Assembly (NCBI RefSeq): GCF_000002985.6
Contig: NC_003280.10
Span: 4,522,501 to 4,586,500, forward strand
Length of the DNA: 64,000 bases
From: Caenorhabditis elegans
Lineage: Eukaryota > Nematoda > Chromadorea > Rhabditida > Rhabditidae
Reading direction: 5' to 3'
Shown here: positions 1-63,400 of the stretch, one piece after another
Numbering within the stretch: the first letter of the stretch is position 1
Layout: every line of letters begins with the position of its first letter
Notes under the pieces: generated by a model
Told to the model about the DNA's origin: nothing
Databases searched by the model: none
What the model saw: only the letters and a program-made list of their open reading frames with translations
Program-made: the position numbers and the translations under genes

Positions 1-111
1 TTCTTATAAAGTCAGAATAATCGAAAATTTGCGAAAATTCAAGTACAAATAAGCTTGCATAAAATAGGTTATTACAATAATTTTGGGTTAGGTTTTTGTG
101 CGGGTAATATT

Positions 112-634: not shown

Positions 635-1143
635 CGTTTTGAACCATTTCAAGTTGAACTTTGAAGCTGATGTTGCGAAGGAACAGAAAAATCTGCAAAA
701 AAATAAATAATTTTAATTGTTTAAAAAAAACAATAAAACTTGTCGTAAAATCAAATGCGGTGTCCGCAATTCTCACTGCATACCGTAGTCACAATCAAAA
801 TCAGAAAAAGAATGAAACGGTAATCAAATAAATTAAGCAAATATTTAGAAACACATTTAAAACTTTAAAAAAAATTGGTTCTAAAAATAATAAAACTTAT
901 TTTAAAATTAAATTTAAAATGTTCTTTTGCTTGAAAACCGCTAATTTCGACAAAAATAATTCAAGGCGCATCACTTTATCTTACTGCGCAGGTATCGACG
1001 CGAAGGATCTACAGTACCCTAGCCTCTAAAGATCTTTTAATTTCAATTTTTTTTGCTTTTTCTCCTGATTTTTCTCCTGATTTTTAACCGATTTTTTGTT
1101 AAATAAATTGAACATTTTCAGTTAATTTTCGTATATTGGTTAT
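635..1143. promoter_or_regulatory. Divergent intergenic region of two small genes
   Basis: The 509 bp between two divergent start codons must hold both 5' regions. It is AT-rich. It contains one copy of a dispersed motif with GGCGCA followed by GGTATCGACGCGAA (about 965-1002) that recurs near 43.7 and 43.9 kb, so part of it is repeat-derived. I see no clear TATA box. Confidence 0.35.
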
Positions 1144-1953
1144 ATGTCGAGTCAGCAGCAAGAATCGGAGGCGTCCGGCTACAACACGTCGGCTTCCAGT
1201 GAGGTATTTTATCATATTTCTAAAAATGAATATAAATTAATTATTATTGCAGTTTGGAAGTCTCGAAGACTCGCACCAATTTGTGAGCCCAGTCACCAGA
1301 CACGCGTCGAAAAGAAGAGCCGTTGAAAATGTAGTTTTTTTCTGAAAAAACCGTGAATTTAATTTTTTGTTAATTTTAGGTGGATCACTTGGACGAGTTG
1401 ATGAAATCATCGATGGTTTTGTCGCCAGAAAAGCGACTCCGTTTGAATACATCAAACGACTCGAATCTTGTGAGAAACACGGCTAGATCGCCTGATTCTT
1501 CTATGAATGGAAGGCCTCAAACAAGACGATCGACCTCCAGTGACATTGAAATTTCTCCACGTGTTCGCGCAATGCGCTCGACTTCCGGAAGCTCAATGGA
1601 TCTTGTCAGAACCGTCTCCTCGTTCTGCACCGATTCCATTTCCCCGAAATTCTTCACAAATCACGGATCGACGACAAGAAAACGCACAGAGAATGGATCA
1701 ATTTATTCAAGACACCGTCTCGGAGCCACATTTTCTCCATTGGTTGCCGGCGCGAAAAGAAAGATGGCAACGCCATCGCAAAGTCTTAAAAGACAAGAGA
1801 AACGTATGTTTTATCTATTTGGCTAATTGTTTTATCGTTTTTAAAAAAGTAATTTCAGAATCGCCATTGGAATCGAGACACGGCGGACTTCGCAGCCGAG
1901 GCACTCCACAGAGGAAACTTTTGCTCTGCGATCGTCTGAAGGTGCTGAACTAA
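1144..1953 (+). CDS. Serine-rich basic protein with many CDK-type SP/TP sites
   Basis: Four exons (1144-1203, 1253-1330, 1380-1803, 1859-1953) give a 218-aa protein. Intron phases are consistent: 0, 0 and 1. The sequence is Ser/Arg-rich and predicted disordered. It has many proline-directed sites, several with a downstream basic residue (SPVTR, SPEKR, SPRVR, SPKFF, TPQRK), an RxL-like KRLRL around residue 65-70 and a hydrophobic C-terminus RKLLLCDRLKVLN. That pattern fits a nuclear, cell-cycle-kinase-regulated protein, but this is inference and no domain is recognised. The penultimate exon is open in two frames; the frame chosen is the one that joins exon 4 in phase. It converges on the chemoreceptor gene that ends at 2134. 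Confidence 0.72.
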
Positions 1954-2133
1954 AGCGCTCACAATTTCCCACATCTCACATTCCTGAAACATGCCCGCTA
2001 ACTCATTTCTTTTGTAATGCTCGATGTCTGTTCTTTTTTATCCATCTCATAGTTAATTTTTAAGTTTAAGTTATGAACCCGTTTTGTTTAATATTTTCAG
2101 AAAAACATGGAGCCCTAAAAAACAAGAAAAACA

Positions 2134-5100
2134 TCAGTATTTCTTCGTCGGAGTCGATGGAGCCAAAGAATCCCACGCATTTTTGAGCTGGGACATCCTT
2201 CCATCCATCGTCTCAGTTCTGTTCGTATTCGTCATCTGGACGATTTGTATCTTTCGATGATCAGAAATCCACTTGGTACAGTAGATCACGCTGAGTGGTA
2301 GACATAATCCGCCATAGGGAATTGTCTGAAAACGGTGGACATGTGAGATGCAGTTGAAGTTTCAGACTTACGTAGATGCACAGGATAATATTATGAAAAT
2401 ACTCGTGCGGAATATCTCGTCTATAGTAGATAACAATAAGACTAGAAGCCACATAAGCTGTCATTGCAACAAATTGGAAAACTGATATGAGAGAGACAGC
2501 GAACGAGGAATTCTTGACTTCTTGGAAATTGAATCGAATTTTCAAATTGAAACTTTTCTTGCTGGATTTAAAAATTGAGAAAATGATAGTGAGGTTGGCA
2601 AGAAGGCATAGAAGAGAAAGGGCAAAATACATGCCAAGGGTGTATCTGAAATTGGGATTTTATTACTATTTCCAGATATTATAGAAATCGACGTGTGTTG
2701 AAAATGTATTGAAAATATTGAAAATGCTCCGCCTCCTAACCATGGGTCTCGTCACGTGGTGGCGAAGTGTCCCATTTTGGTTTGATCTTCGAAAAATGCG
2801 GGAGAAGAGACGCAGACTTTTTAACTGATTTCGCATGGTTAAAAGTGTGCTGACGTCACATTTTTCTGTGAGAAAAATTCCCGCATTTTTTTTTTAGATC
2901 AAGCCGCAATGAGACCGCCTGTCACCACGTGTCTCGTTAGGTACTTGGCGGCAAAACCAAAAGATCAATTTATAACGTTTTCAATTAGTTTCGCCGATTT
3001 CCAAAATTGTTTAGTCTTTTCGATTTCTGTATGTGAAAATAATAATTTTTTTAAAAATACATGTGAAATAAATTTAATTTCATTAATTTCAGCATCAAAA
3101 CCATGATTAATCAATAAATTTTTTGCATGCCTTCATAGAGGTGCACGGAATTATTCAGATGGGTCTCGGCGCGCTAAAAGTATGTGGTAGACCGTTTTTG
3201 ATTTTTTGCGGCATTTTTCAATCATTTTGCTTTTTTTTTGAGCTGGCAAATAGGAAACACATTTTCAAACTAATTTAAAAATTTTTTCAACAAAAATAGA
3301 AAGAAAATCACAAAATTTGGACAAAAATTCAATACCACAAACTTTTGCGCGCCGAGGCCCATCTTTATAAATCCGTCCGCCTTTAAGTAGAGACCTCAAA
3401 TTCAGGCGAAATTGCGATAACAAAAATTGCGTGAAAATTGACAAAACCGTTTGAATTTACGGTTTTGCCGCCAAATGCCTAACGAGACCCGCGTTTCCTC
3501 ATCGGGTTCAAAAACGGATTTTTTGCGACTCTATAATATATTTTAAAAATGACTAACAGCACTCTATCCAATGGAATATCCTTTTGCATAAAACACGAAG
3601 CCAGCTTATAACCAGTTGGTCCTTCCGAATAACTGTATATCGTTGTGGAAATACCAGCTGTCAGAGCAAACGCGTTCAGGAACAATCCTTGACGTTTGAA
3701 TGGCTTCAACTTTGGAACGAGAGGTATTATTCTGTCAATAATTCTAAATGAAAAATTAAAGTTTCGGGAACTTGGGGTTGAAAGTGTACCTTTCAATAGT
3801 AAGAGCAGTTTGAATGAAGCTCATGAGCATTTTGGCAGCTCCGACAGTCCACGTGATTGCATAGCATTCATATCCAGTGAACATAATCATAACAGGATCA
3901 TCGTAGAAGACCACGGAACGGTAAAGGGAGATTGCCTGAAAATATTTATGGTCTCGCCACGGTCTCATTTTAACAGTTGCTAAGGTTCATTAGGTGAGAA
4001 TATTTATTTTGTTTGTTTCTGCGAAAGTGCACTGATTAATTTCGTAAGATCATTGCTCACTGCTTCAGACTCTTCCCAGACACGGAAAAATGTTTCAATT
4101 AGTCACTTTAATTTATTTACTCGCTAACAGACATCACCAATTACACGACCCACCACTTGTGATTAACGGTCATTGTCTAGAAAAATAATAGCTTTTCAAG
4201 ATTAGAACTGGTTTTTTTGTTGGATTCCAGAATCTTGACACTAACCTGTAGAAAACCATAGCTAATGGCGTGAAAGTCCGCGTATACTATACTCATGAAA
4301 AGGAGTTGATGAGTCGATATATGGAAAACTGAACGACGGTATAGGACCTTGAATGCCTGGAATAAATAGTTTTAGGAAAAATTAAACATTTAAATGAATG
4401 GATTATTATTTTAGTGTTATTCTAGTATTTAGTACAGGAGTGAGCTTGGCAAATTCGGCAAATTTGCCGTGGTCGTCATACTCGGTAAATTTAAAATATT
4501 TTTTGGAGCTCAAAAAGTGCCAAAGTTAAAGGAAAAAACAAAGTTCACTGGTTTTCGATTGATCGTTTGTGTGCGGCAAATTTCAAAATTTACCGAGCTC
4601 AGCAAATGTGCCGCTCACCTTGATTTAGTACCTCACCATTTTTCACTATAGGCTACAATAAGTACGATCTCTGCAGTATTCAGTAAGTAATGTTTAGAAC
4701 AAGTTTGAATACTTCAGGTTTAAGAAAAACTCAGTTTTTTTTTTTGGCATTTTACGGCACTTTTTTAAATTCTTAGAATCTTTGATGTTTTGTTTTTGTT
4801 TTGTATTTTCTAAATCAAATAAATAGTTCAATTCCAAAGTTTGATAAGGAGTGTCTTGGCTTAAATTTTCAAGCAAAGATCAATTTAATTTTTAACGAGC
4901 AGAATGTCAAATAGTCAAAGATCCCAGAGAGGCAAGAATGTTTCAAAATAATTGTATACGTGGACGGCCATAGACCACATCTTTGACGGGTTTATGGTGG
5001 GGTGACGATGTGTCGACTAAACGAATACCCCCACTATATGGCTAATAATTCAAATATGTTGATTTTACGGGGTTCACCATTTGCCGTTTGTCTTTCTTGT

Positions 5101-5400
5101 GAGCATCTACGCGATTAAAATTATCTAATTTTTCAAATATAGTTTTTTGGAAATTCTTAAACGGTTTCTCAAACTTCTAACGATGTGATGTCAAAATCGC
5201 AATTGCCAGACTAAAATTGCACGCATCAGTGATATAAGTTTCGACATACATTTGCATTCAACTATATTTTAATCTAAAATCTTTCTCACCTTGCCGGAAA
5301 AGTACAGCGTCAGAATGCAAATTGATATCTGAAACAGTGCATTGCCACGGTATAGCAATGAAGTTCTGGCTGCCAATAGAGTTTCGGTAGAGTTATTCAT
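2134..5400 (-). CDS. Sra-family serpentine chemoreceptor (copy A)
   Basis: Six exons (5400-5290, 4356-4246, 3935-3790, 3743-3558, 2645-2372, 2325-2134) join in frame into 339 aa. Seven hydrophobic segments are visible. Sra-type marks include SVFHISTHQLL at the end of TM1/start of TM2, SLYR before a tyrosine-rich loop, IMFTGYEC at TM3, an ALTIER end to TM3, a single Cys in loop 2 (LASCF) and a final region with conserved Trp. Exons 2 and 3 are 111 and 146 nt, identical in length to the same exons of copies B, D and E. The N-terminal CASE-type Cys and the Cys before IMF seen in copies D and E are absent. Introns 1 and 4 are long (about 0.9 kb) and hold repeats. It is presumably a G-protein-coupled receptor of sensory cilia. 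Confidence 0.82.
2926..3498. repeat. Imperfect inverted repeat in intron 4 of copy A
   Basis: The sequence around 2926-2958, containing ctcgttagg then ttggcggcaaaacc, returns inverted at about 3454-3498. The arms are about 30-35 bp and enclose a second, smaller inverted repeat, so two foldback units seem to be nested in the intron. Confidence 0.6.
3137..3385. mobile_element. MITE-like foldback element, about 250 bp
   Basis: The left arm (about 3137-3188) contains gatgggtctcggcgcgc. The right arm (3333-3385) contains its near-complement gcgcgccgaggcccatc. Arms of about 50 bp flank a short AT-rich spacer. There is no coding capacity. The size and long terminal inverted repeats fit a nonautonomous DNA element. 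Confidence 0.55.
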
Positions 5401-7391
5401 TAAAGGTAGAACAAGTGGTAACGAAAGTCAAAATAAATAAATTAGTGATTTCGTTTCTTCTGATCAGTCAAGAACGTTATTCATCCGTAACTCGAGTCTA
5501 GCAAAATAACGATATATATATATGTAATCTAAGTTGAGTCAATAGAGGAGGTCTTCTGGGAGATGAGATTGACGCAAAATCATACGATCTGATACTTGGA
5601 TTTATGAAGTTTTGATTTTATGGAAATTGAACTGAAACTATATGATTAATCATAAAAATTAAAAAGTCAAAAGCGATTCTGCAAAAATAGAGCACTAAGA
5701 AATGAGTGAAAGGAAATATAAAAAGGATTACTGTATTATTGTAGGGGTACTGGAATTGTGTAGAAGTTCTGTAATAGTACTTTAGGGCTAATATAGGAGT
5801 ACTGTATGATCACCGTAGCGGTACTGTAGAAGCAGTGTTTTTCATTGTTTTTTTTTTGAAAAACATGAGTTTGTTTTTCTTTGAAGGGATTTTGTTATGG
5901 TTATTGGAGTAACATAGCCGGGATACTGTAGTCGTACTGTAGTTATACTGTAAGAGTACTGTAGTATTACTATTGTTTTCAAAAAAGTGAGTTTTTTCTG
6001 TTTTGAATGCATAAGATACTGTGGTAGTAGTGTAGGGATACTGTAAGATTACTGTGGTTTTGGAAAAGCAAAGAAAGTTCCAATCGTTTGAAAAGTTCAA
6101 CCAAATGACAAATTATTTTCCAGAAAAATACTTCTAGACTTTTTATACTTTTTTCCAGCCAATTATCTGGCATAAGAAAAATTTTCAGAGAAAGGAGACA
6201 GACATAATTCCTGAAATCATACGCATTTCAGGTTGGAATTGAGTCTCCGCTCAATAGAATCAAACCGCTATTATGATGAACTGCACTTGGGCCCGAGAGA
6301 CAAAATCGGGCATTTTTCTAATTTTTTTTGTAGTTTTAGACACAAACTTCAACTTAAAATACTTAGCAGACACGGAAATCAGAAAGCTTTCTGAAAAAAA
6401 TGCAGAAGAAGGAAAGCATATAGATCCATAGAAAATGACAAATCAAATGTTTATACGCTTGAGAGAATAAGTAGTGTCTAGTTTCAAAATTAGAATTGGT
6501 TCACTTGAAAAAATATGTCAAATTTTTTTTCTTGGTATTTAATGATATTACAAATTTTGCAAACTAAACCGTAAACAGACAAAATTTTCCCAAGATGTTT
6601 AGGTAGTTCTCAAAAATTACAAAAAGTGAGCTTTTCGTGCACATTTTTCTTAGAGCTTTTTAGCTTGCAGTTTTTCAAGAAATTGAATTTTTCTAATACT
6701 ATTTTCAACACAAATAAATTCCTAGGAAATGAGATATAAAAATACAATTTAATTCCTAATAGTAAGAACTATTTGAAAAAAAAAATTGGCTTGAAAAAAG
6801 CACAAGCAATTGCAATAGAGCAAGCAAAATTAACAATTCCATTTAAAAATCAGAAAAGATTTCAGATCTTTGGTATAGACAGGAATTTGGGGACCCTTAT
6901 CCATTAAAGCATTTCAAGAATTTTTAAGAAATATAATGCTGAAAATTAGTGAAAGTGGGCACGGTACGAAAAAAAGAAAGTCAGAAAAGTACAGGTGTTT
7001 GGGAAATTAATAAAACTTTTAAAAAAAGTTAAAAATTAGCGATATTCCATTTTAGGTCCTCCCAATTATTGGCTTTTGGTTTTTTAAATCAAGTTATTAC
7101 GTTTTTTTTTCGAAAATGCTTCTTTATTGCAGACTGAAAAAAAAAACGGAAAAACTTAAACTACATGGTTTTTCAGACAAAAAAACAAAAAAAGTTCCAG
7201 ACCAGACCAGGACTTTTTTCACCTGTTTTTTACTATTTCTAATTCAAAAATGCTTCTGACTAATGCTATTGTTATGCAATAATTCTAGAGTATTTTCTCC
7301 AATTCTACCGAATTCCAACCGAATTGCTACTTGGAGAAAAGCAATAAATATTTATTGAGTATGAAAAAAAAACATATTTCCAGCAAATGAA
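5401..7391. other. Intergenic region between receptor copies A and B
   Basis: About 2 kb of AT-rich sequence with no exon that can be joined in frame on either strand. Apart from the TACTGTAG cluster at 5725-6060, I see only homopolymer runs. The 5' regulatory sequence of copy A must lie at its left edge. Confidence 0.5.
5725..6060. repeat. TACTGTAG dispersed repeat cluster
   Basis: About a dozen degenerate copies of GTACTGTAG/GATTACTGTAG in this orientation, spaced irregularly by 8-25 bp. The same motif forms ordered units at 31.5-31.8 kb. The periodic stops and open frames on the other strand come from the repeat, not from a gene. Confidence 0.7.
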
Positions 7392-9464
7392 TTACTTCCA
7401 ACTATCCGAAAGTTTTGTAAAATATCCATCCTGAGTCAGTGATACTCTTGTCGCAGTGTTGATTCTTCGTTTTCTGCGATTCCCAATCCATTGAATGAAT
7501 ACTTTTATTTGAATAGGAACTAATAGAGTGGAGTATGGTGTTGTCTGAAAAATGTTCTGATTTTTTTGAATTTTAAAAGTATAGTAGTTCCAGTGAGGCC
7601 AAAATGACCAAATACCATAGTAAAACTTCTAAAATTTTAAAAATTTGTTTTGTCAAATATGTTCCAGTTTTTATACCACTCTAGGCACTTCAAAACTTTA
7701 CAGAAAATTCCCCACATCTGCTAGGCCTGCTAGTTAAAAAAAAACCACCAAACAACTCACATAGAACCACCTCAACAGGTTCGCATTCCCAAGTTCCGGA
7801 TTCGTCATTGACATATTTGCCAATACAAACATACTAATTGCATAAATTGAAGTTACAAACAATTGAAGCAATGAGTTCAATGAAACCGCCATTAGGGAAT
7901 GATGTTGTTCCACTTTCAGATATTGAGAGTTCAAATCATAGTTGATCTTCTTCCGGTCATTCCACGTGTACCACATCATCAGAAAGTCAAGGGCCGCACA
8001 ACAAGCAGATAGGATAGTGTATGACGTCAGATTTGTACTGAAAGTATACTTTGAATTGAATAGGACACTGATGAGCTACTTACGAGCACAGATTGATTGT
8101 TATATCTGTTTCTCTGAAGCAGCTAGTAGTTACAATTCCAGGATGTGGACCTTTTAGGTGTAAAAGACAGCCGAGTGCAAATGAGAGAATTACCTTTAAA
8201 ACGAAGCAATTTTTCACAGAAAAAAACCAGTGTTTGAAAAATCACTCAATTTTTGTAGCTATTTACAGCATTTTAACGGAACTAGGTTCAGTCAAACTTA
8301 CCGCTAAAATATTCAAGATTTCACCACGAACACCTGGATAGCAATGAAAATGTTTCCGGAACAAGATGACTATAATTCTGAAATCATATAAAAATACAGA
8401 CTCTGTAAAAAATTACATTCTCTGAAAAACCAACTAACCTATCAACATTCAGAGCGAGCTCAATGGCTATAAACAAAAACCGTACACATGAGTTCAAGAC
8501 GTGCTGGACAAAACATTCTTCACTTGTGAACATAATTGCTGTCATGTTGTCTGAATATGCAAACGATCGGTAGAGAGACCATGTCTGGAAATATTAGTAA
8601 TTAGTTTATTAATAACAATGGTAGGTATTTAATTTATGGCACCAAAACTCGAATTTCACTAGACAGGGAGATCTGATGTATAATCAAGGATCACCGGAGC
8701 CATTTTAATGGAATCTAAGTCCTGCCTGCCTACTCTTCAATTAGTTCAATGAGAGTTCTACTAGAAGTACACAAAGTAAGACATAGGTAAGTTTAAAATC
8801 AACACAACATTGAAGTTACCTCTATAATAGTGTAGGACGCATTATGCACATTTCCATATACCAAACTAGCAATAAGTAGATGCGTGATAGATTTACTGAA
8901 CAGTTGTTTCGACGTCAACTCACGGATTGCCTGGAATGAAACAGATTTTTACCGGATTGTTTTCGTTGAAAACTTCAAATACTTCACTTTGACAGTGTAT
9001 GTCATTGGTTTTATAAAAAAAATAGTTCAACTAGTAACATATAGGTTAAACCTTTTTTATATATTTGTAGTTGAACGTTTTTGACAAATTTGAAAATAAC
9101 TGAAGCACAAGCTATCAAAGTAAATAGTAGTCTAACATGACAAAATATCAAACTTAAGCTGGTCACAAGTTTTTAGATTTTTCAAGAATTACAGCGAAAT
9201 TTTTGGAATACATGAAAACTAGGTACATATTATAATGACCATCTTTTGCATAAAAGCAAGTACATCTCTTGAGAAGTTTTTTTTTTTTGGTATTTGCACT
9301 TCTAATAATCAAAAACTTACATGAATCGACAAAAACAATGCCAAAATCAAAACCAAATCGATATAAATCACATAAACTCGGAACGAAGTAGCTGTTCTCA
9401 AATCCCGAATGTATTCCATTGAAATTGGAATTACATTGAATGAGTTTTCCGCGTAGTCTTCCAT
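7392..9464 (-). CDS. Sra-family serpentine chemoreceptor (copy B)
   Basis: Seven exons (9464-9321, 8930-8820, 8584-8439, 8377-8302, 8193-8084, 8037-7761, 7544-7392) join in consistent phase into 338 aa. Sra-type marks are TWSLYRS, IMFTSEEC at TM3, TTSCFRETD in loop 2, NLLRWFY at TM7 and a tail with LSDSW. Exon 5 uses an unusual TTTTAAAG acceptor; the join is supported because it restores TM4 in phase. The intron after exon 4 lies at the same place as one in copy E and is missing in A, C and D. The N-terminus lacks the family Cys. It is predicted to be an intact receptor in sensory-neuron membranes. Confidence 0.82.
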
Positions 9465-11545: not shown

Positions 11546-12249
11546 CCAATAACAATCTGGCATAAAAGCAAAAGTTCAGATTGCAATAAACTAATTCTCT
11601 GACGGGGAAAAATGGGTGTTGGGTTGGTGTAAACCCAATATTAGGACAATAAACCAGTCGGACTGATGTTAGATCAAGGTTTGGTTTATTTTATTATGAC
11701 AAAAAGGTAAAGACATTTTAAGATGAAAGTTAAATTTCGGCGGAAACTTTAAAAGCATGTTAGTCGGGGAAAAGTATCAGAAAATCAATTTTAAAATGCT
11801 AGTTTTTATAACTTTAGTTGTTGTCCAATAAGTTTTTCATTCTGGGAACATTTTAAAAATTCGGAATTTTCTTTTAGAATATTCCAGAACTTTTTCAAAC
11901 ATTCTAGAGCATTTCCGAACTTTCCAGAAATTTTTGAGGCATTTCCACAGTTCGAATTATCTCAAATTCTAAAAAAAAGTGTTCTAAAACTTTCAGAAGC
12001 TTATGGAACTTTTTCAGCAAAAATTTGCTGTTGTTTGCTGATCAACTTGCAAAGCGTAAACTTTTGAAAATCTGGAAATTCCAAATAAATTTCTGTGAAA
12101 ACTAGACTATTGTTAACTCTTTTTAAATACTTTCCAGTAAAACCACGTGTCACAAGATTGACGAAATTAATTTTGCAGTTTTTTATAGAAGCAGACATCA
12201 TTGCGAACCAAATCACGGTGCGAAACATTTTTCAAAAAATCATCAAAAT

Positions 12250-28215: not shown

Positions 28216-28600
28216 TTCATTTAATTCTGACTGGAAATCTGATATTTGGTTCTTGCACAGTCTAGGTTGTTTTTTGAAAATTGTTCATTGATTTGCTGAA
28301 AGTTTAGCCTGTTCAGTTTAGGAGAAAGCACGCGTAGGTAACTGATTTCTTAATTCTCACTGTATCAATGCAATTATGCTTTATCCTTCTGACGCACGAC
28401 GTTCAGTCTCTAGTTAGTGTTTGTTTGTGATATTTCAAGCATCCGACATTTTACAGGTCTTTTTTTACAATTTACCTAATTTAACTTTTCTGCCAATTGA
28501 AACTTTTTTTTGTGAATTTTCGATTTTCTTTTTTTTAAACTTGTTTTTTCCCTTCTTTCCTTTATTTTCTCCTGCTTTCAGTTTTGATTTCCAGTTAAAA

Positions 28601-29410
28601 ATGGTGCAAATCTGGCAAATGGAGCCATACCCATGTGGTGACCCAAGACTCCCACATCATCTTTTCCCACCAAAGAAGATCACTCCAGATGAGTTGAGCA
28701 AGAGAACCGGAACACTTTACTGGAAGTTGGACACACTTGATCAAGTTGCTCTTGCCAAGCGATTGACAACCTTGAAGCTGGAGCATAGTTTCAAAAAAGA
28801 GGATATTTTCACTTTGGACGCCGAGACAACTGCTAACTTCGATGATAAGATCGAGGAGTTATTCGAGGAATCATCGGTTCCATTTGAGCAGGCAAGAATG
28901 ATCATTGAGGGTACAGCTTATTATGATGTGGAGGATAAGAATGGTCAATGGGTCCGTATTTTCTGCGAGTACGGGGATTTGATTTTGATTCCAGCCAACA
29001 CTTGCTTCAGATTCACAACCACACCACATGTAAGTGCTACAGTTTTTGAGGTAGTTTTGAAAAATGATAGAGAAAAGGCCATTAATGTAGGCGCCGAAAC
29101 GCCTGCTTCGTCTGTCTATCTAGACCGACCTCGTGACGTGAGCTGCGCTTTCTGTCTAGTACGGCGCGGAACCAAAAAGTGTCCGGCGGCAGATAGGCAG
29201 GCAGATGTCAGGCAGGTGCCTGACCCTGAAAACGCGCCTGCCTACTATAGAAGCTAGTCTCAACTTTTTTTTTTGAGAAAAAACTAAATACTGAAAATGT
29301 GATTTTTCAAATTTGAATTTTTTAAACTTTTAGAGACTTAAAAACCCTGGTTTTTTTTTCAGAACTTTGTCAAAATGCGTCGATTCTACAAAGATGAAGA
29401 TTCCGAGTAA
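28601..29410 (+). CDS. Acireductone-dioxygenase-like protein, predicted catalytically inactive
   Basis: Two exons (28601-29029, 29363-29410) encode a 158-aa cupin. [58 protein letters not shown] and MRRFYKD align with the methionine-salvage enzyme that oxidises acireductone. The metal site does not match. Where active enzymes have EHLHxxxE, this protein has ESSVPFEQA: both His become Ser/Val and the aligned Glu becomes Gln. The fourth ligand His, in PAGxxHRF, is Phe here (NTCFRF). The C-terminus is about 20 residues shorter than usual. The fold core is kept, so a pseudoenzyme with a binding or regulatory role is likely. The start lies just after a TTTCCAG that may be a trans-splice acceptor. 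Codon use is better than in neighbouring ORFs, suggesting steady expression. Confidence 0.9.
29095..29250 (+). repeat. GGCAGGCAG repeat in the dioxygenase-like gene's intron
   Basis: GATAGGCAGGCAGATGTCAGGCAGGTGCCTG and CGCCTGCCTAC words fill the end of the intron. They keep the exon 1 frame open for another 75 codons, which is a repeat artefact or, less likely, a retained-intron isoform. Confidence 0.5.
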
Positions 29411-31516
29411 CGATTCGCCCAACACAAAAACACCATAAAATCCCTAACTGACCTTTTTTCCTAAATTTCCAAACTCTGAAATCAAATCAGTTTGTACAAA
29501 AAAATTGTCTTGTAAACTTTTCAAACCAGGCCCGGTAAAAAAAAAACTAAAAACTTCTGAAAATTCCCTTCCCATCTGTCTTGTAAATAGAGCTCTCTTC
29601 ATCTCTATCTCGATATTTTCTTTCCTTTTTTATTATTTTTTTTTGCAACTAAAACTCAATAAAAAACCAATTTTCTTCGTCTTTCAACTTTGCACATTGA
29701 AACAGCACTGCTAAAGCAAAAAGAGATCAGTAGCAGATGGTCTCATCGATGAACTTATTGATAAGAAAAAGAGTAATAGTGTGTGAAAGATAGAGTACAC
29801 AGGGGTAATGATGTAAGGTTTTACTCGAAAAGTTGAAAAATGCACGGAATCATTGTGATAAGAGCATGGGTTAAAAGGGTTAAGAGAGATGAGGCAATAG
29901 TTGGCATTTTTAATGCATTTGCTGTAGTTTCAAGGTATTTCAATTAAGGTATACCAACTGTTTTTTTTTAATTTTACGAATAGTTTATCACAATTTTCGC
30001 AAATATCTTCGATTTGCATTCACCCTCTTGTAAGTCTTGTCAACTCCAACATAGATTGCCACAAAACAGGTGATTTTATTTGAAACGTTTTTATAGCCTA
30101 CGTCTGCCTTACCAACGACCTATTTTATTTTGGCATAAACTCGAAGGCTCTAGGCTTCAACAACTCATTTCTTAAAGATGGAGTACCAATATTTCCTTGT
30201 TACTACCGAATTTCCTATTGAAATGCTCTAAAATTATTTTAGAAAAAAGTTTTGGAAGCAGGTATACTTACAGCTTAAATCTCATATTCTGCAAAATCAT
30301 TACAAAATTGAGTAGTTTTGAGACATTTTGGGTATAGAAAACCAAAAGTCTCAAATTTCGAAACTCCACCTTTAATTCCAAATGAACTTTGATACTGTTT
30401 CTACCAATTTTCTTTGTCTTTTCTGTTTTCCAGAATAAATAAATTTGATAAGGAATCTTATCTCGATTCAGGAGAATTTATGTTGAATCTATGAATTTTC
30501 TGAATGGAAACTGATTTTTTTATTATTTTGTAACCAGTATCATTTGAAGTTCAAGTTAGAAACAAATCCGGTTTTATTTTAAAGTACTAGTTCGAGAAAC
30601 AATTGTTTGTTAGAAGAGAATGGCGAAGTTAAAGTTATTTTTCCCCTGTTCAATAGTTTCGTTTTGATTTTAACAGAAAGTATTTTTTTTTTGTTTTTTT
30701 CTATTTTAATTTCAAAATTTCTATTTTTTCAAGTGTCTTGACCGGAAACAAGAATTACCAACGCAAACTTTATCAGCTTATGGCTGAAAAATGTCATAAC
30801 ACATTTCATGACCCTTATCAATTATTTCAATAGTAAAACGCCCACAAGCAATGCAATATTCCTTCCGTGTTTATTGCTAAGTTGGTGAATATTTAAAGGG
30901 ACACGGAAGAAAGGAACAATCAGTTATCTAGTCTCAATTTTGTTAAATTTACATCCTTTAAGGTAATGAAACAACATTTTCGATTTGAAAAAAAAAAATT
31001 TTGATAGACTGTTTTCGTTTTTGAAAAGGTCGTCCTCTATAAAATATGAAACACTTTTAATTTTCGCCTTGTTGAATCAATATTTTAAAAGTTTAAATTT
31101 CTCTGTTAACTTGGCCGATTCTTAAAAAAAATAGCTTTAAAAACTAAACCTTATCGCCCGTAAGCACAAAACTTCCTTCATTCTAGGAGATTGAAACCTG
31201 CCTAAAATAATACTTTCTTTTAATGTACAAGGGGTTTTAGCTTATTAATCCAATTTTTAACAAAAAGTAGATGGCAGTAGGCAAGCTTGTACGCCTAATG
31301 GCTTGCCTCCGCCTATTATTATTAGATACTTGCAAGTTCTTCCTGTCGTTATATATAAATAAAATTTACTTCAACATTTAGCAGGAAGCGATCATAAACT
31401 AAAATCATCATTACTTATATATAAAAAAATACATGAGGGATGTTACAATTGTAGTTTGTAGTCTGTGACGTCACACCTGCAAGGTGTTTCCGGCTGTTGA
31501 AGGGATTGTGGGTTGG
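29411..31516. other. Intergenic region, 3' end and repeats
   Basis: It begins with the 3' UTR of the dioxygenase-like gene, with an AATAAA at 29658-29663. The rest is AT-rich. A TATTTAAAG at about 30.89 kb followed by a short spliceable-looking leader ending in CTTTAAG/GTAATG (30.96 kb) could be a promoter, but no coding exon follows. A GGCAAGCTTG/CCTGCC repeat is at 31.27-31.31 kb. Confidence 0.45.
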
Positions 31517-31850
31517 GGTTAGTGGTGGGATATGGTCGGGATACTGTAGTAGTACTGTAGGGTTACTGTAGGATTACTGTAGTTTTGGAAAAATTGACTT
31601 TTTGTCTTTTGAAGTGATATTGGTTTAAGGTTAGTGGTGGGATATGGTCGGGGTACTGTAGTAGTACTGTAGTAGTACTGTAGTAGTACTGTAGGATTAC
31701 TGTATTTTTGAAAAAAATTGGCTTTTCGTCTTTTGAAGTGATATTGCTTTGGGGTTAGTGTCGGGATATGGTTGGGGTACTGTAGTTGTACTGTAGAGGT
31801 ACTGTAGGAGTACTGTAGGATTACTGTAGTTTGGGAAAAATTGACTTTTC
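31517..31850 (+). repeat. Three ~120-bp tandem units with TACTGTAG clusters
   Basis: Units starting near 31517, 31635 and 31755 each read GGTTAGTG-TGGGATATGGT-CGGG, then three to five TACTGTAG words, then GTAGTTTTGGAAAAATTGACTT and TTTTGAAGTGATATTG. The third unit runs directly into the heat-shock-element array. Confidence 0.8.
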
Positions 31851-31880
31851 GTCTATTGAACGGATATTGGAAACTTTGAG

Positions 31881-32440
31881 AAAATTCCGGAATGCTCCAG
31901 AACCTTCTGGAAAATTCGAGAAAATTCTGGAATGTTCCAGAACCTTCTGGAAAATCCGAGAAAATTCTGGAATGTTCCAGAACCTTCTGGAAAATTTGAG
32001 AAAATTCTGGAATGTTCCAGAACCTTCTGGAAAATCCGAGAAAATTCTGGAATGTTCCAGAACCTTCTGGAAAATTTGAGAAAATTCTGGAATGTTCCAG
32101 AACCTTCTGGAAAATTTGAGAAAATGCTGGAATGTTCCAGAACCTTCTGGAAAATCCGAGAAAATTCTGGAATGTTCCAGAACCTTCTGGAAAATTTGAG
32201 AAAATTCTGGAATGTTCCAGAACCTTCTGGAAAATCCGAGAAAATTCTGGAATGTTCCAGAACCTTCTGGAAAATTTGAGAAAATTCTGGAATGTTCCAG
32301 AACCTTCTGGAAAATTTGAGAAAATGCTGGAATGTTCCAGAACCTTCTGGAAAATTTGAGAAAATTCTGGAATGTTCCAGAACCTTCTGGAAAATTTGAG
32401 AAAATTCTGGAATGTTCCAGAACCTTCTGGAAAATTCGAG
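31881..32440 (+). repeat. 14 x 40-bp minisatellite forming a continuous heat-shock element
   Basis: Fourteen exact-length 40-bp units read AAAATTCTGGAATGTTCCAG followed by AACCTTCTGGAAAATTTGAG. In each unit TTC and GAA alternate every 5 bp (positions 5, 10, 15, 20, 25, 30, 40), and the register carries across unit borders because 40 is a multiple of 5. Only the module at position 35 varies (TTT, TCC or TTC). Units 3-7 and 8-12 form a 200-bp higher-order repeat that differs only in the sixth/eleventh unit. Both strands are open in several frames; that is a by-product of the repeat. Confidence 0.95.
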
Positions 32441-32446
32441 AAAATT

Positions 32447-32511
32447 CGTGGTGAGACCCTTCGTGGTGAGACCCTTCGTGGTGAGACCCATCTTGGCGAG
32501 ACCCATAAGTT
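32447..32511 (+). repeat. Short CGTGGTGAGACCC repeats
   Basis: Three copies of TTCGTGGTGAGACCC and a diverged fourth (TTGGCGAGACCCATA) link the two minisatellites. Related GGTCTCGCCACG words occur at 3.95 and 41.1 kb. Confidence 0.75.
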
Positions 32512-33207
32512 TTGGCGGGAAATTCAAATTTTCTGTGAAAAATTGTGGCGGGAATTCAAAATTTCTGTGAAAAATTTTGGCGGGAATTCAAAATTTCTGT
32601 GAAAAATTTTGGCGGGAATTCAAAATTTCTGTGAAAATTTTTAGCGGGAATTCAAATTTTCTGTGAAAAATTTTGGCGGGAATTCAAAATTTCTGTGAAA
32701 AATTTTGGCGGGAATTCAGAATTTCTGTGAAAATTTTTGGCGGGAATTCAAATTTTCTGTGAAAAATTTTGGCGGGAATTCAAAATTTCTGTGAAAAAAT
32801 TTGGCGGGAATTCAAAATTTCTGTGAAAAATTTTGGCGAGAATTCAAAATTTCTGTGAAAAAATTTGGCGGGAATTCAAAATTTCTGTGAAAAAATTTGG
32901 CGGGAATTCAAAATTTCTGTGAAAAATTTTGGCGGGAATTCAAAATTTCTGTGAAAAATTTTGGCGGGAATTCAAATTTTCTGTGAAAAATTTTGGCGGG
33001 AATTCAAAATTTCTGTGAAAAATTTTGGCGGGAATTCAAAATTTTTATGAAAAATTTTGGCGGGAATTCAAATTTTCTGTGAAAAATTATAACGGGAATT
33101 CAAGTTTTCTGTGAAAAATTTTGGCGGGAATTCAAATTTTCTGTGAAAAATTTTGGCGGGAATTCAAAATTTCTTTGAAAAATTTTGGCGGGAATTCAAA
33201 ATTTCTG
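32512..33207 (+). repeat. 22 x 32-bp minisatellite with E2F-like core
   Basis: About 22 units of TTTTGGCGGGAATTCAAAAT followed by TTCTGTGAAAAA, with 32-bp spacing. A few carry base changes (TTAGCGGG, GGCGAGAA, AACGGGAA). TTTTGGCGGGAA resembles the reverse complement of E2F/DP sites (TTCCCGCCAAAA). Most units keep the core intact. Confidence 0.9.
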
Positions 33208-33213
33208 AAAAAA

Positions 33214-33349
33214 AATTCTGGAATGTTCCAGAAGTTTCTAGAAAATTCGAGAAAAGTCTGTAATGTTCCAGAACTTTCTAGAAAAATCGGGAAAATTCTC
33301 GAATGTTCCAGAATTTTCTAGAAAATTCGAGAAAAGTCTGGAATGTTCA
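33214..33349 (+). repeat. Diverged heat-shock-element units
   Basis: Three and a part units related to the 31.9-32.4 kb array, with TTC/GAA still alternating every 5 bp (for example GAATGTTCCAGAAGTTTCTA then GAAAATTCGAGAA). It appears that the 32-bp repeat expanded inside, or was inserted into, a once longer array. Confidence 0.85.
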
Positions 33350-33686
33350 ATTCCCTGAAAAAATTCAAGAAACTTCTGCGAAGTTCTAGAACCTTTCAAG
33401 TTTTGATACTCCTAGAATATTCTGAAGTTTTAAGAATTAAAAAAAAACAGAAATTGTTATAGATAATTTCCAAAAACGCTCGCCAAAAACTTTCGGAAAG
33501 GACCGGAAAAAGTCTCATAAAAGTTCCAGGAAACTTGAGGTTTTAAAATTGTAATTGCTTAAAATTAAGTATATAATATTTATGTTGCTCGAAAACTTCC
33601 GGAAAACAAGGAAAAAAACGTTCCATCTGCAGTGAAATGCTTAGAAATTTCAGAATTTGATTTTAATTTTGAGTACGCCAGTCGGA

Positions 33687-33716
33687 GCACGCGCTTCAGC
33701 GCGTGCGAACGGCTGG
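33687..33716 (+). repeat. GC-rich hairpin and CTGG end
   Basis: GCACGCGC-TTCA-GCGCGTGC forms a perfect stem in otherwise AT-rich DNA and is followed by GAACGGCTGG. This is the layout of a Helitron 3' terminus. On its own it could also be an unrelated palindromic repeat. Confidence 0.6.
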
Positions 33717-40450: not shown

Positions 40451-40950
40451 ATGAACCGCTTCGCAATTCTCCTGGCTCTCCCACTTCTTGCTCTTGCTGC
40501 TACTCCAAATGAGAAGCTGAAGCTATGCTGTGCCACGTTGAAGGATGCCGATAAGGAGTGCGTCGATCGATTCTGTGACTTCAATGCTCTTTCTCAAGCT
40601 AACGTAAGTTGTCTCCTGAGAGCTAGTTGCGCGTCAATTCTGATGTATTTAGTCAGCTTACTAGAAATAACCATTACACGTTCTTATTTCAGATTCTGAA
40701 CTTCATGTCGACTTGCGGAGAGCGTGGACCAACTGTCGGAGAAATGTGGGATTGTGCTTCCCTCCGTCACAACCACGAGGACTGCTGCAAGAAGGCCGGT
40801 GTCTCTGGAGAATGCCTCAAGTACTGTACCGCTCATAAGGGAGCTCCATCCAACTATTTGGACTATGCTTTCTGTACCGAGAACTTCAACGAGATCCGTG
40901 ATTGCTTCTACAACCATTTGGACAAGAACGAGCCATTCAAGAAGCTCTAA
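40451..40950 (+). CDS. Secreted DB-module cysteine-rich protein
   Basis: Two exons (40451-40603, 40693-40950) encode 136 aa. A signal peptide (MNRFAILLALPLLALAA) is followed by a mature part with 12 cysteines, including KLCC, EDCCKKAGVSGECLKYC and IRDCFYN, the pattern of the nematode DB module (extracellular, function largely unknown). Codon use is strongly biased to C/G-ending optimal codons (TTC, AAG, GGA, CTC), unlike the receptor genes, so high expression is likely. A consensus AATAAA at 41010-41015 follows. A 168-aa frame on the opposite strand is its shadow. Confidence 0.88.
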
Positions 40951-42515: not shown

Positions 42516-42587
42516 AACGGAAAATGGGAATTGAACCCCAGCCCTCTCCCATGCTAAGGGAGCGCTCTACCACTGAGCTATACCCCC
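42516..42587 (-). pseudogene. Broken tRNA-Ala(AGC) copy
   Basis: Reading from 42587 downwards, the 5' acceptor strand GGGGGTA, D arm, anticodon arm with AGC and most of the T arm match the intact gene at 42889. The T stem then lacks one C, and the 3' acceptor strand is replaced (TTTTCCG instead of TACCTCC), so the acceptor stem cannot form. It lies in the left arm of the inverted repeat at 42533-42951. Confidence 0.75.
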
Positions 42588-42951
42588 GACGAGTGATTCG
42601 GGTGATCAGGGCAAAAAATTTTTCGGTGGCTTATCACTGATACAACCAGATTATGTACCTGGTTGCAGAAGAAAAATATGTACAAGGTCTAAAAAAGTTG
42701 AGAAGCATACTACAGTATTCTTTAAAGGCGCACACTTTTCTGCACCCTATTAAAATTTTTCATTCGTCTCAAGACCATGTACCGTAGTTTTGCGTAAAAA
42801 TTACATGATTTTGCGGCCATCGCAGTTTCTTCTTATCAGTGATAAGCTATCAAAAAAATTTTTGCCCTGGCCACCCGAATCACTCGTCGGGGGTATAGCT
42901 CAGTGGTAGAGCGCTCCCTTAGCATGGGAGAGGGCTGGGGTTCAATTCCCC
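42533..42951. repeat. Inverted repeat with a tRNA in each arm
   Basis: Left arm about 42533-42641 and right arm about 42835-42951 are inverted copies that include the tRNA bodies and 50 bp of upstream sequence (CGACGAGTGATTCGGGTG). A 190-bp unique spacer separates them. Similarity stops inside the T arm on the 3' side. Confidence 0.85.
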
Positions 42952-42960
42952 ATACCTCCA
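42889..42960 (+). tRNA. tRNA-Ala (anticodon AGC)
   Basis: 72 nt folding into a full cloverleaf. The acceptor stem is GGGGGTA with TACCTCC plus discriminator A. The D arm is GCTC-AGTGGTA-GAGC, the anticodon stem CTCCC/GGGAG with loop TTAGCAT, and the T arm TGGGG-TTCAATT-CCCCA. A T-rich stretch downstream (AATTTTTTAG) can act as Pol III terminator. There is no intron. Confidence 0.95.
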
Positions 42961-46365: not shown

Positions 46366-46783
46366 AATTTCCGGCAAATTGGCAAACCGGCAATTTGTCG
46401 AAAATTAAAATTTCTGGCAATTTGGCGATTTGCAGAATTTGCCGAGCGTCAATTGCCGCCCCTGGTTGGAAGGGCGGCGAATATGTTGCCGACAAGTTCG
46501 ACAAATCGACAATTTGCCGGAATTTTCAATTTTCGGAAAATTGCCGGTTTGCCGGAAAATTTAATTTTCGGAAAATCACGGATTTTCCTGAAATATTCGA
46601 TTCCGGCAAATTTCTGATTTGCCAGAAAATTTCATTTTCGGCAAATTACCGATTTGCCGGAAAATTTCAATTCCGGCAATTTACCGGTTTCCCGGAAAAT
46701 TTCATTTTCGGCAAATTACCGATTTGCCGGAAATTTTTAATTCCGGCAGTTTGCCAATTTGCCGGATATTTTCAATTCCCGCC
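46366..46783 (+). repeat. GGCAAATTGCCG repeat cluster (1)
   Basis: About eleven units of roughly 33-36 bp, TTTGCCGGAAAATTTCAATT then TTCGGCAAATTACCGA. Overlapping open frames of 77-136 codons in three phases come from the repeat. Confidence 0.85.
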
Positions 46784-47916
46784 CACCCCTATATTCTATC
46801 AATAAATAATGAGGAAAAATATTTGAGAGAACTTACTAAACTAATCAAATAAATTCTTTTAGAAATTCGCAAAAGTTAGCAATTTACCAACTGAAATATT
46901 CGAATACCTTCAAATTGACAATTGTCTCACAGAAACCTACTAGCATCTACTATCCCCAGTTTTATTAATTAGTCTCATAAATGTTTTGTGTTGATCGATA
47001 GATACCCTTAACCTAATCAACACGATGACTAGCCCCAAAAGGTTCTTGTCTCCAAGTACACCAATAAATTAGGTTCTTTGCCCATTCTCGACCATATACT
47101 ATTGCGTAAAACATCAAAGCACCGGGGACCGACACGACGAAAGCACACAAACTTATCAACAACTATATAAAACATTTTTGATGATGATGATGATGATGAT
47201 GATTCCCCCTTGTATAGTCATGCTTTCTTCATAGTGGTCAATTGTGGAGAAAAATGGACGAAAAAAGGTGTTTTTCACACGCTCGATTGTCAAGAAGAAG
47301 TATCTATTTTTGTGATCGGGAGGTACGCGGTGTTCCAAATTACAACTAGTTGTTCTCCATTTTCCCTCATTTTTGTGTGTCTCCACCACCACTTGAGTCA
47401 GTCGCAAATCACCCCCCGACTTCGTCTATTCATCACACAGGTTACATAACTTTATTGGGATGGGCGTAGCGTTTTCGCTGATTATTATAATTATCTTTCT
47501 AGGTTCATCCTGAATATTATGGAAAATCTATCCATTCTAATATTCTTCTCGCACGCGGGTTACAAAGTTACGACCGGGTCGTAAATCTGTTGTGGTTATC
47601 CGTGTTTGTTTCGCAACACCCCCATCTTGAGGTTGAGGTTATCATTGTAAATCATGTTGCCACGAGATTTTTCGATACGATTAGTGAGGCTGGCAGTTTA
47701 AGATAATAGGGTTCTCACCCTCTCTGACATGGTGCAATCGACAGATTTTCTTGAATTCAAACGAGCGTGTGCGTTGAAGGAGTACTGTAGTTGTGGGATT
47801 TTCTTCAATTTTGTCTAGTTTTTTAAATAAAGTTTTTTGTATGTTTTATACATTTCCACATGATTTTCTATAAAATTTAAAGAAACCTATGAAAAATGGA
47901 AAGAATCCCAATGAAA

Positions 47917-48322
47917 ATTCGGCAAATCGGCATATTGCCGAAAAAGAAAATTCCCGGCAAATCGGCAAATTGCCGAAAATTAAAATTCCCGGCAAACCGG
48001 CAAATTGTCCAACAATGAAAATTTCCGGCAAATCGCCAATTTGCCAGAAATGAAAATTTTCCGACAAACCGGCAATTTGCCGAAAAGGAAAATTTCCGGC
48101 AAAATGCCGATAATGAAAATTTCCGGCAAATCGGCAAACTGCCGAAACTGAAAATTTCCGGCACATCGGTAAAATGTCCAACAATGAAAATTTCCGGCAC
48201 ATCGGTAAATTGTCGAAAATGAAAATTCCGACAAATCGGCAAATTGTCGAAAATGAAAATTCCGACAAATCGGCAATGTGCCGAAAATGAAAATTTCCGG
48301 CAAATAGGCAAATTGCCGAAAA
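47917..48322 (-). repeat. GGCAAATTGCCG repeat cluster (2)
   Basis: About twelve units of 33-37 bp, AAATTTCCGGCAAATCGGCA then AATTGCCGAAAATGAA. It is open in three minus-strand frames of 128-180 codons with no real gene. Confidence 0.85.
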
Positions 48323-49588
48323 TGAAAGAAAAATGGCAATTGACAGATTAGAAATATATTTCTCAACTAATTGGTAATGTTTTATCAAAATTATATCTAC
48401 TTATTCAGTTACCCAATTTTCAGTTTTAGTCATAATTAATTGTATCAAAAAGTTTACCAGCACCCGGAGTTACAGTACCTTTTCCGAATAATTTTTCTCT
48501 TTCTGCTAAATCATAAAAATTTGAAACGGTTATAAATTAAACCAGATTAGCTATGTAAATGGGCATCTTGTCTTTTGTCTCCTTCTTTCATGTTCCAATA
48601 ATCAAATCATAGTGACTTCTTCTTCTTCTTCTGGATTCATCCCTGTTAGAACACAACTAAGTGGATTCAATTCTTCTTCTTCATATGATCTACAGTTTCT
48701 AATAGTTGGCGCACTTCTCGTCCTCCCACAAGTAGATCACCGCCGCCGCTCTCGCATATGTTTTGCCCTCTGCCGCCCGATCGGGGGGCGGGGCCTTCAC
48801 TACGACCACCTGCCCCGCCCCCCAAAGGCCTATCTTTCTTGGTTTCTGCTGGGGGGTGCATCTGAGAAGAGAGTGTCCGGTTGACCCACAGAAGAGCTTT
48901 TCCTTTTTTCTCTATTTCTCAACTTTTTTCTGGAATTCATTTTTCATCATTTATTATTACTTCCCAATTTTTTTGCTTGTACTGGTTTTGCAAAAATTAC
49001 CCTATTTTAAATTTTTTTTTTGAAAAATTCCTTCCCACAATTCTGTACCACCATTTCAAATAAAAAAAATTAATAAAATTTTTCGCCGAGTTCAATTACT
49101 GTAAAAAAGTGAAATTTTTGAAATTTGAAAATTGTAATTTAAACATTTTCAAACTTTATAAAATTAAAAAAAAAAATTTTGAAGAAAATTTTCAAAAAAT
49201 GATTCATTTTTCGTATAAACTCCACTGAAAATTCATTTTTATAATTAAATAACTTTTTTTTTTGATTTTTTTAAAAATATCACAAATTTTCCTTTTTTTT
49301 GGATTTTTTATATAAGTTTGGAATTTTTGAATATAATTTTCTTCTTTTTTAACAAAAAACAAAACAAAAAATTCGGCGAAAGTCTTTTTGGAATTTTTCC
49401 CAATTCTCGTCTCCAAATCACCTTTTTTTTCTTTGCTCTTAATTTCTGAAAATGTCTTTTTTTTTTCATTTTTTTTTCTTAATTTTCACCAATTTTCAGC
49501 CCAAAAAAACGACACACCTCAAATGCATCAAAACTCGCGTCACTAAATCCACTAACCATTTTCAAAAGAACCCCCATTTTTCAAGAAA

Positions 49589-60400: not shown

Positions 60401-63400
60401 CAGCGGACCGTGAGAAGAGACAAGGAGAAGAACAACGGAGGAAGTTATTGTAATTATTATTATTATTATTAGTATTAGTTGGGATTGTATTATGGGGGCA
60501 ACAATAGGTTTAGCAAATATTTGACTATATTCCTGACTTTTGAATGGTTTTGGATTTTCTGGCAAGGTTTTTGTCGAATAGATTTGAGTTTTTCTGTATT
60601 TTCAGAGTTAATCGGTAGATCAAAATATTACCAAAAATACACTAGAAAAAACCCAGTTTCCCATGCCAACCATAAGTTATTCAACTCTTTCTCGGGATTC
60701 GACCTCCTCACAAATCTCTAATTAACTCCTCGGCTACACCTACCGATCCTAATTGGTTTTTACGACACACACCACCACCGCGGCGATGACTGCGTAATCA
60801 GAGCGGCTCGGATTAAAGACGACGCCTATATGCATACGGTACCCGAGCCTTATGGCTGGTAGACAAAAGCCCATTTAGAGGAGCAAGTCGTTAAAATTAC
60901 TGGTATTGCGCACTGAAACATATGGCTCGATAGGCATTTATGGGATTTTTTGAATGAATAATTTGTTTTGTTTCAAAAATCCCAGATAGAGAGAATGCCA
61001 GGTGGCGCCGCTTGATCCATCCAAATTTTCAAACAAAGATTCGAATCAGAAATGTAATAGTTAGATAGCCGTAATTCATCATGTTTTCCATACTAATTAC
61101 TATTAAGAAGTACCAAGAATTAGTAGAGATTCCTATATTAGATAAGGAAGGAGAGCTTTGTGATATAAATCTACTTTTCCTGCTGCAGCAGCTACTACTT
61201 CCCTTCCCATCAAAGATTTGTATCTAGAAGAGGGGTCTTTTTTGTTGGAGAACTGTCACCTCTAGTTATCGTATATGGAATTGACAGATGGGTAGGTGGT
61301 AGTGTCAATTGGTGTCGGCCACTTGAAAAGGGTGGAAGAAGCACCATCATATTGGCTCACCTGCACACAAGCTGCACCCATGCGCATCCACATGAGAATG
61401 TGAGAATGATATGGGTTGGGGGTATGTATTGATATGGAATTGGAATTTCGGAATTTGTAGATTTTTTGGAAGTTTTTGGATCATTGGAGTTCTACAGTAA
61501 CCTTAGGGATTTGAAATCAGCAAAAATTTCAAAAACTCGATACAATATTTCGAAAAAACGGAGGCACCACGAATTCAAGATCTGGTGAGATTCCGGATCT
61601 ACGATTTTCTGACCTGGCACCGCGCCAACACATAAGACGCCATTTTTCTCGAAGAAAACCGTGACAACGATGCTCCGACGTCGCGTGTTGTTAAGCGTAT
61701 TTTATGGAAGAAAAGTTTAAGAAACAGCGTTTTTCATCGAGCAAAATTGCGTAGATCCGGAATCCCAACAGATCTTGAATCTGTGGTGCCTCAAAAAACG
61801 AATAACCAGAGGGTCTACCGTAATCGAATCAAGTCAAATCTGGATTTTCCCTTCAATCTTCTATCTCCTAATCACCTATGCCTTCATTCCCCTTCTCTCC
61901 AACAACGAATAATAATTCACCGAGAGTCCAGTTACCCCTGGGATATATGGAGCCTGCTAACTAATTTTCAATTTGTGAAAATGGTCCAACAACACACCCA
62001 CGACACGAGTGCTAATCCAATTTATCCTTTGGCTCTCTCCGAAACGAAGAAAAGGACAAGTGACCTTAAGAAGAACGAGATGAGATGGAGAGTTGAATGA
62101 ACTCTCTCTCCGGAACAAATGAGATTGCGTAAAGTGTTGAGAGCTGTCTGATATGACATTGATAACGTCTATTTTGGCGGCGGGACATCAAAAAGAAACG
62201 CGCAATATCGGTTTATCTCGTGTCTCTATATGTGTTGTTTATGATGATGAGGAGAGAATGAAAAGGAATTGGTATGATAAATTGATTGGCCCGTTGTGTT
62301 CTAGATATATACTGAAATTGACCCGAAAAGTCCAATATTTGGGAAATTCCAATATTTTGGCAATTTCCAATAATTTGGTAATTTCCAATTTTTTTGATAA
62401 TTTCCAATATTCTGGTAAATTCCAATAATTTGGCAAATTCCATTTTTTTTGGTAATTTCCATTTTTTTGGTAAATTCTAATGTTTGGTAAATTCCAAAAA
62501 TTTGGTAAATTCTAGTATTTTGGTAAATTCCAATTTTTTTGGAAATTTCCACTATTGGGTAAATTCCAATTCCTTCGGAAAAAGTGCAAACTTCTGCCGA
62601 AACCTGACATTTGGCCAATTCTAATTTTTGGAAATTTCCAAATTTTTGGTAAATTCCAATCTGTTGGCAAATTCCAATATTCACGAAATGTGGATGCCTA
62701 TCAACTCAAAATACGGTTAATTCAACGAGCCAACACATTGAAATGCCTGAGAATTTTTTTCTATTAGGCGCAACTCATTAATGCTCCTAATTAAGCCTAA
62801 TAAATCTTCAAAAAGAGAATTCCGACGAGATGATCCCAGGTGTATTTGATTAGGATCATGATAGTCGTGGGGTCACCACAATTGGTTACATTTTACGACG
62901 ACCCTCTCTTTTCAAATTGTTTCCTCGATTCGGTTCGTTTTCAAATTGTGCACCTGTCGTCAGGCAGGCAGGCACCCGTCTGTCCCATCTCTCAGGTTTT
63001 CAAACAACACACACCCCACCACCACTTGACTGCTCTAAATGGGATTATCACGGAACGTTTGTGTGTGTGGTATACATACACAAACACATGTGCCCCGAAC
63101 GATGAGGAAAAGCGGAGAGGCGAGAAAAAAGGCGGTATTCCTTTTTTAAAGGCATGTGCCGCTGCCGCCGCCTGGAGGGGTCAAATAGAAAACAATAGCC
63201 ACTTTAATGTGGGAAATGAATACAGAGAGAGATGTATTAAGAAAATGAGGAAGATGGAATTATGACAAAGGACCATAAAATTGGGCTTTTTCTATCAAAA
63301 GGGGGAATTATTCCGGCAAATCGGCAAGTTGCCGGAATTGAAATTTCCGGCAAATCGGCAAGTTGCCGGAATTGAAATTTCCGGCAAATCGGCAATAATT

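Follow-up and report, generated by a model that had tools for sequence, protein, structure and literature searches.

The window analysed here, a stretch of 64,000 nucleotides from Caenorhabditis elegans (C2:4522501-4586500, within a searched genome of 100,286,401 bases and 7 contigs), carries on its plus strand a Helitron-like element of 2309 bp (31408..33716) without a recognised replication gene, inside which lies a long array of heat-shock element (HSE) modules. The limits of the element were set by the end alignment of several copies, its termini, the pairing of 5' and 3' ends and an ORF scan. Helitrons are characterised by a 5' TC, a 3' CTRR with a hairpin ~10-12 nt upstream, and insertion between A and T with no target-site duplication. 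The element starts with TC (31408..31409, plus strand), common to the aligned copies, immediately after a host A at 31407, and terminates with CTGG (33713..33716, plus strand), which fits CTRR and is followed by a host T; terminus inspection located a hairpin with a perfect 8-bp stem (GCACGCGC/GCGCGTGC) and a 4-nt loop at 33687..33706 (plus strand), the element ending 10 nt past it. Copies elsewhere in the genome align to the window over 31408-33716 and diverge beyond both limits, and the flanks of several copies, compared by end alignment at filled sites only, have nothing but A|T in common at the insertion point. The exact 20-base 3' end occurs 41 times in the genome, with T as the next base in 41 of 41, and the exact 33-base 5' end 11 times, preceded by A in 10 of 11 (the exception is at C3:9533560). 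An exact 3' end follows within 4 kb downstream of 10 of the 11 exact 5' ends, delimiting elements of 866 to 3912 bp.

The internal order of the element, as resolved by TRF on the plus strand, is a 124-bp/11-bp TACTGTAG minisatellite (31542..31870), the HSE array, four copies of the 15-bp satellite TTCGTGGTGAGACCC (32445..32504), 22 copies of a 32-bp satellite (32510..33214) and a second HSE array (33216..33348), in which a module scan counted 27 modules, 85% of them perfect, and which is slightly closer to the other of the two unit types described below. A short TACTGTAG repeat, similar to the minisatellite in the 5' part of the Helitron, is also present at 5923-5971. An autonomous Helitron is expected to contain a Rep/helicase gene. 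No Pfam match to Rep/helicase was found in 10 of the 11 ORFs of at least 60 aa within the element, which is filed as a putative non-autonomous Helitron because the scanned ORFs gave no such match. Some of the repeat frames gave scattered above-cut-off matches to the unrelated Pfam families Thr_dehydrat_C, AvrRpt-cleavage, GETHR and GLTT, which we read as artefacts of stop-free repeats. A 334-aa stop-free frame runs across the array on the minus strand (31519-32523); its odd Pfam matches are likewise read as artefact and not as the sign of a gene.

An ORF with an acireductone dioxygenase (ARD) domain (28418-29257, plus strand) ends ~2.1 kb to the left of the element, and an ORF with a DB module lies at 40627-40950 (plus strand). 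Among 30 ORFs outside the element these were the only two with a Pfam match, so that no promoter could be placed on either side. Rfam and ARAGORN returned two tRNA genes only, both at least 8.8 kb to the right of the element; they are tRNA-Ala (AGC) genes in opposite orientation, at 42517-42588 (minus strand) and 42889-42960 (plus strand). Satellites whose core is CCGGCAAAT-like and whose units measure 34-35 bp, by eye unrelated to the HSE array, are located at 46512-46779, 47910-48327 and 63311-63395. A diverged HSE-like run of 13 in-register modules, 7 of them perfect, overlaps a 20-bp tandem repeat at 11872-11936 and may be an ancient remnant of the family to which the HSE array belongs.

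An HSE array is defined here as at least three inverted nGAAn modules at 5-bp spacing. The array of the window (31870..32447, plus strand; ~580 bases) comprises 14 full 40-bp units, each consisting of four TTCNNGAA-type decamers, and a fixed 5-bp grid counted 116 alternating TTC/GAA modules in a single register, with no indel and no register break. TRF gave a period of 40 bp, 14.5 copies, 95% match and 0% indels. The unbroken register across tandem 40-bp units was correctly seen in the original prediction, and its estimates of ~112 modules and about seven perfect modules out of eight per unit were close, since 31881-32440 holds 111 whole modules (96 perfect, 15 with one mismatch and none worse) and the array averages 6.93 perfect modules of the eight in a unit. 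The GAA modules are 100% perfect and the TTC modules 72% perfect; in 12 of the 14 units TCC or TTT stands in place of the fourth TTC. Without any mismatch the array runs for 11 modules at most, and there are 69 overlapping perfect triplets. In 100 dinucleotide shuffles of the window, the longest run with at most one mismatch per module was 10 modules (mean 7.12) and the longest perfect run 4, and 1000 shuffles of the array itself likewise reached maxima of 10 modules and 4 perfect. With 116 modules observed, a chance origin of the register is ruled out.

Because TTC and GAA alternate, the register has a period of 10 bp, which requires a unit length divisible by 10 and not, as first proposed, by 5. 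The accompanying idea that helix phase is preserved holds locally and fails over 580 bp: the DNA helix turns once in ~10.5 bp and the repeat measures 10.0 bp, so the modules drift slowly round the helix. Within the array, two 200-bp blocks of five units each (31925-32124 and 32125-32324; together 31925..32324, plus strand) differ by one base in a block comparison and are a segment duplication. In sister insertions these variants (TCC, TTT and, in most insertions, TGC) recur in different orders, and in a copy on C4 the variant modules recur in a three-unit cycle. The best explanation of the register is that 40-bp units were duplicated entire, which preserves it automatically; a long register therefore requires no selection for HSF binding.

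Relatives of the array were collected by a DNA search of the genome (at least 144 matches; 40 of 278 candidates scored), in which an exact six-module pattern has 1554 forward-strand occurrences. The comparison set consisted of 38 merged stretches totalling 295,141 bases, the 64-kb window included, chosen by array or module-pattern match and thus not a genome-wide census; the close relatives C4:12022549 and C3:9534154 lie outside it. Removal of opposite-strand duplicates and of arrays whose consensus was more than 6 bases from both unit types reduced 100 arrays to 58 non-overlapping ones with 954 units, and the references used for the two unit types are three bases apart. The relatives carry the same kinds of satellite as the element in the window. 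In unit number, 24 of the 58 arrays exceed the window array, seven equal it (14 units, itself included) and 27 have fewer, and in perfect modules per unit it ranks fifth of the 41 arrays with at least 10 units, tied with the fourth. Other copies hold runs of 284 and 259 modules, practically none of them worse than two of three bases, and a score tolerating a few poor modules extends to runs of 349, 320 and, on chromosome V, 508 + 1087 modules. The longest array, on V, has 201 units (C5:7916948-7925028; 65 + 136, entered in the counts as two rows); its module runs, longer than all others observed, occupy C5:7917023-7925016 (24-8017 of stretch L036) and are separated by a break in the register. 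The array in the window is thus ordinary among its relatives, neither the longest nor the densest. The exceptional character ascribed to it in the original prediction is not supported, and it is essentially no denser than other copies, one of the two outcomes named there as refuting the prediction. Uniqueness is ruled out by the dozens of Helitron-borne arrays in the C. elegans genome.

Helitron-borne HSE satellites are already known from print as regards the longest array, the 40-bp family, the Helitron link and HSF-1 binding (PMC4595182, PMC6927752). The family Cele_Fam_7_40 of Subirana et al. (2015) is described as a Helitron satellite with a unit of ~40 bp, a multiple of the palindromic GAANNTTC decamer (PMC4595182), and by this description the window array belongs to it, as it is likewise built on the decamer AGAANNTTCT. 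Table 1 of that paper lists V:7916946 with 8052 bp and 40 x 201 (PMC4595182), in agreement with the 65 + 136 = 201 units counted here, and the CENP-A score of this array, 0.636, is the lowest among the rows of the satellite table examined. Neither heat shock nor HSF is named in the main text of the paper. Garrigues et al. (2019) reported HSE clusters within Helitrons of the same genome, namely HelitronY4_CE, Y1_CE, Y1A_CE, Helitron1_CE and Helitron2_CE (PMC6927752). Their HelitronY4_CE copy upstream of nhr-247 lies at C5:15320317-15322912, where the published primers have one match each, 2.6 kb apart. It shares the satellite order of the window element and differs from it at one position in the first 24 bases, but its 3' hairpin is another one, its first HSE block is short and worn, its 15-bp units are numerous and its second HSE block is long. 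The older satellite literature is said to include La Volpe (1988) on the family RcS5.

The placement of the array within a Caenorhabditis Helitron, at which the original prediction hinted, is borne out by the termini of the element and by the published class of Helitron HSEs (PMC6927752). According to that study, 61.4% of genomic HSEs (11,527 of 18,766) are located in Helitrons, eight HelitronY4_CE copies hold more than 100 HSEs, and heat raises both HSF-1 and Pol II at Helitron HSEs as a class. Helitron1_CE RNA was reported to increase in heat under HSF-1 control (PMC6765114), and Helitron deletions upstream of fbxa-215 to change thermotolerance (PMC12062965). The HSEs of the hsp-16 and hsp-70 promoters are also alternating 5-bp modules bound cooperatively, four to five in number compared with 116 in the window array, and the DNA-binding domain of worm HSF-1 was cooperative on most multimeric HSEs tested, with up to five domains (PMC9148306). 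As binding is published for Helitron HSEs as a class, the window array most likely binds HSF-1 in heat like other copies. Taken together, there is good reason to regard the locus as a Helitron-carried 40-bp HSE satellite that was lengthened by unit duplication and is loaded with HSF-1 in heat, a reading held with high confidence. The array most likely moved to the locus inside the transposon and would later have been lengthened and reshuffled through whole-unit duplication; upon heat, by analogy with the published copies, it is most likely occupied cooperatively by HSF-1 trimers, and the loaded HSF-1 may recruit Pol II and turn nearby sequence heat-responsive. A large number of sites is no guarantee of strong binding, since the HSE-rich col-88 Helitron was less occupied by HSF-1 than hsp-70 and Helitron-HSE genes bear more repressive chromatin marks (Garrigues et al., PMC6927752). 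The ~2.1 kb that separate the ARD-domain ORF from the element also weigh against strong local effects.

Such repressive marks also agree with a passive origin, in which the satellite is transposon debris that merely resembles HSEs and sits without effect in silent chromatin; this is possible, though somewhat doubtful. Module variation was examined in arrays of at least five units (16 of type A and 26 of type B), each variant being counted once per array, with low power. Purifying selection on modules received no significant support in this low-power permutation test on 16 + 26 arrays, the events per position being 5.96 in modules and 6.94 in spacers for type A (P 0.20), and 7.71 and 9.56 for type B (P 0.23). 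Among module positions, the G of GAA has the most events in both types (8.75 and 14.0), contrary to what constraint on HSF contacts would give; the G and C positions contacted by HSF are as variable as spacers and so lend no support to selection for binding. In the longest array, moreover, the fourth TTC is intact in 0 units and one other TTC in just 15-28%. Against the debris explanation, modules tend to change less than spacers, though not significantly, and the fewest changes fall on the two As of GAA (2.75 to 3.5 events per position), as either constraint or a low mutability of A would produce. It is also opposed by the published gain of HSF-1 and Pol II at Helitron HSEs in heat (PMC6927752).

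Rather less probable is that the arrays act jointly as a sink, titrating HSF-1 off promoters under stress. The 58 arrays together offer 6030 perfect modules, a total of which the window array is a small share. According to a review, preferential binding to Helitrons represses the activity of HSF-1 in germ cells under heat stress (PMC9737000, its reference 68); that reference is taken to be Edwards et al. (2021). Decoy action has been suggested for sites borne by transposable elements (PMC8896005); the terms decoy, titrat- and sink are nevertheless absent from the Helitron HSE study itself (PMC6927752).

Beyond the reading of a Helitron satellite loaded in heat, it is conceivable, albeit improbable, that Helitron HSE satellites are the DNA scaffold of HSF-1 granules and that their self-complementary RNA feeds dsRNA foci. 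HSF-1 would then polymerise along the arrays, including the copy in the window and the 8-kb array on V, and transcription through them would yield self-complementary RNA and hence heat-induced dsRNA foci. The self-complementarity arises because the TTCNNGAA modules are palindromic. Folded as RNA, the window array reached -264.7 kcal/mol against -138.5 +/- 6.7 in 100 shuffles and its other strand -277.8 kcal/mol, with -100.5 and -115.3 kcal/mol for flanks of equal length; the 32-bp satellite gave -202.7 kcal/mol on one strand and -99.6 kcal/mol on the other, and four other HSE arrays -182.4 to -274.3 kcal/mol. From these folding energies, a transcript through the array would be largely double-stranded. 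Human satellites II and III are different repeats, pericentromeric and with no Helitron, and the worm HSE arrays are, unlike them, short and scattered. In human cells these satellites are bound by HSF1 in heat, within nuclear stress bodies (PMC6453478, PMC9737000). The DNA sites of the worm HSF-1 granules were termed unknown (PMC6453478), the granules reform at similar places (PMC9737000), and heat-induced dsRNA foci partly overlap them (PMC6453478). Yet the heat-induced foci persist in a hypomorphic hsf-1 mutant (PMC6453478), dsRNA recovered in heat is reportedly enriched in translation-related and downstream-of-gene transcripts, and neither Helitrons nor transposons are named in the dsRNA-foci paper (PMC6453478). 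Granules, foci and dsRNA are not mentioned in PMC6927752, and a link between Helitron HSEs and HSF-1 granules appeared in none of the open-access matches listed, as far as their accessible text goes, which leaves its absence from print unproven. An assembly artefact as the source of the array is unlikely, because full-length relatives occur elsewhere in the genome.

For the biology of C. elegans, the single locus adds little, Helitron-borne HSE satellites being published. Taken as a family, the arrays contradict the statement of a review that worms are without satellite repeats (PMC9737000), and they are obvious candidates for the binding sites of worm HSF-1 granules. If that were true, satellites spread by transposons would do in worms the job that satellite III does in human cells.
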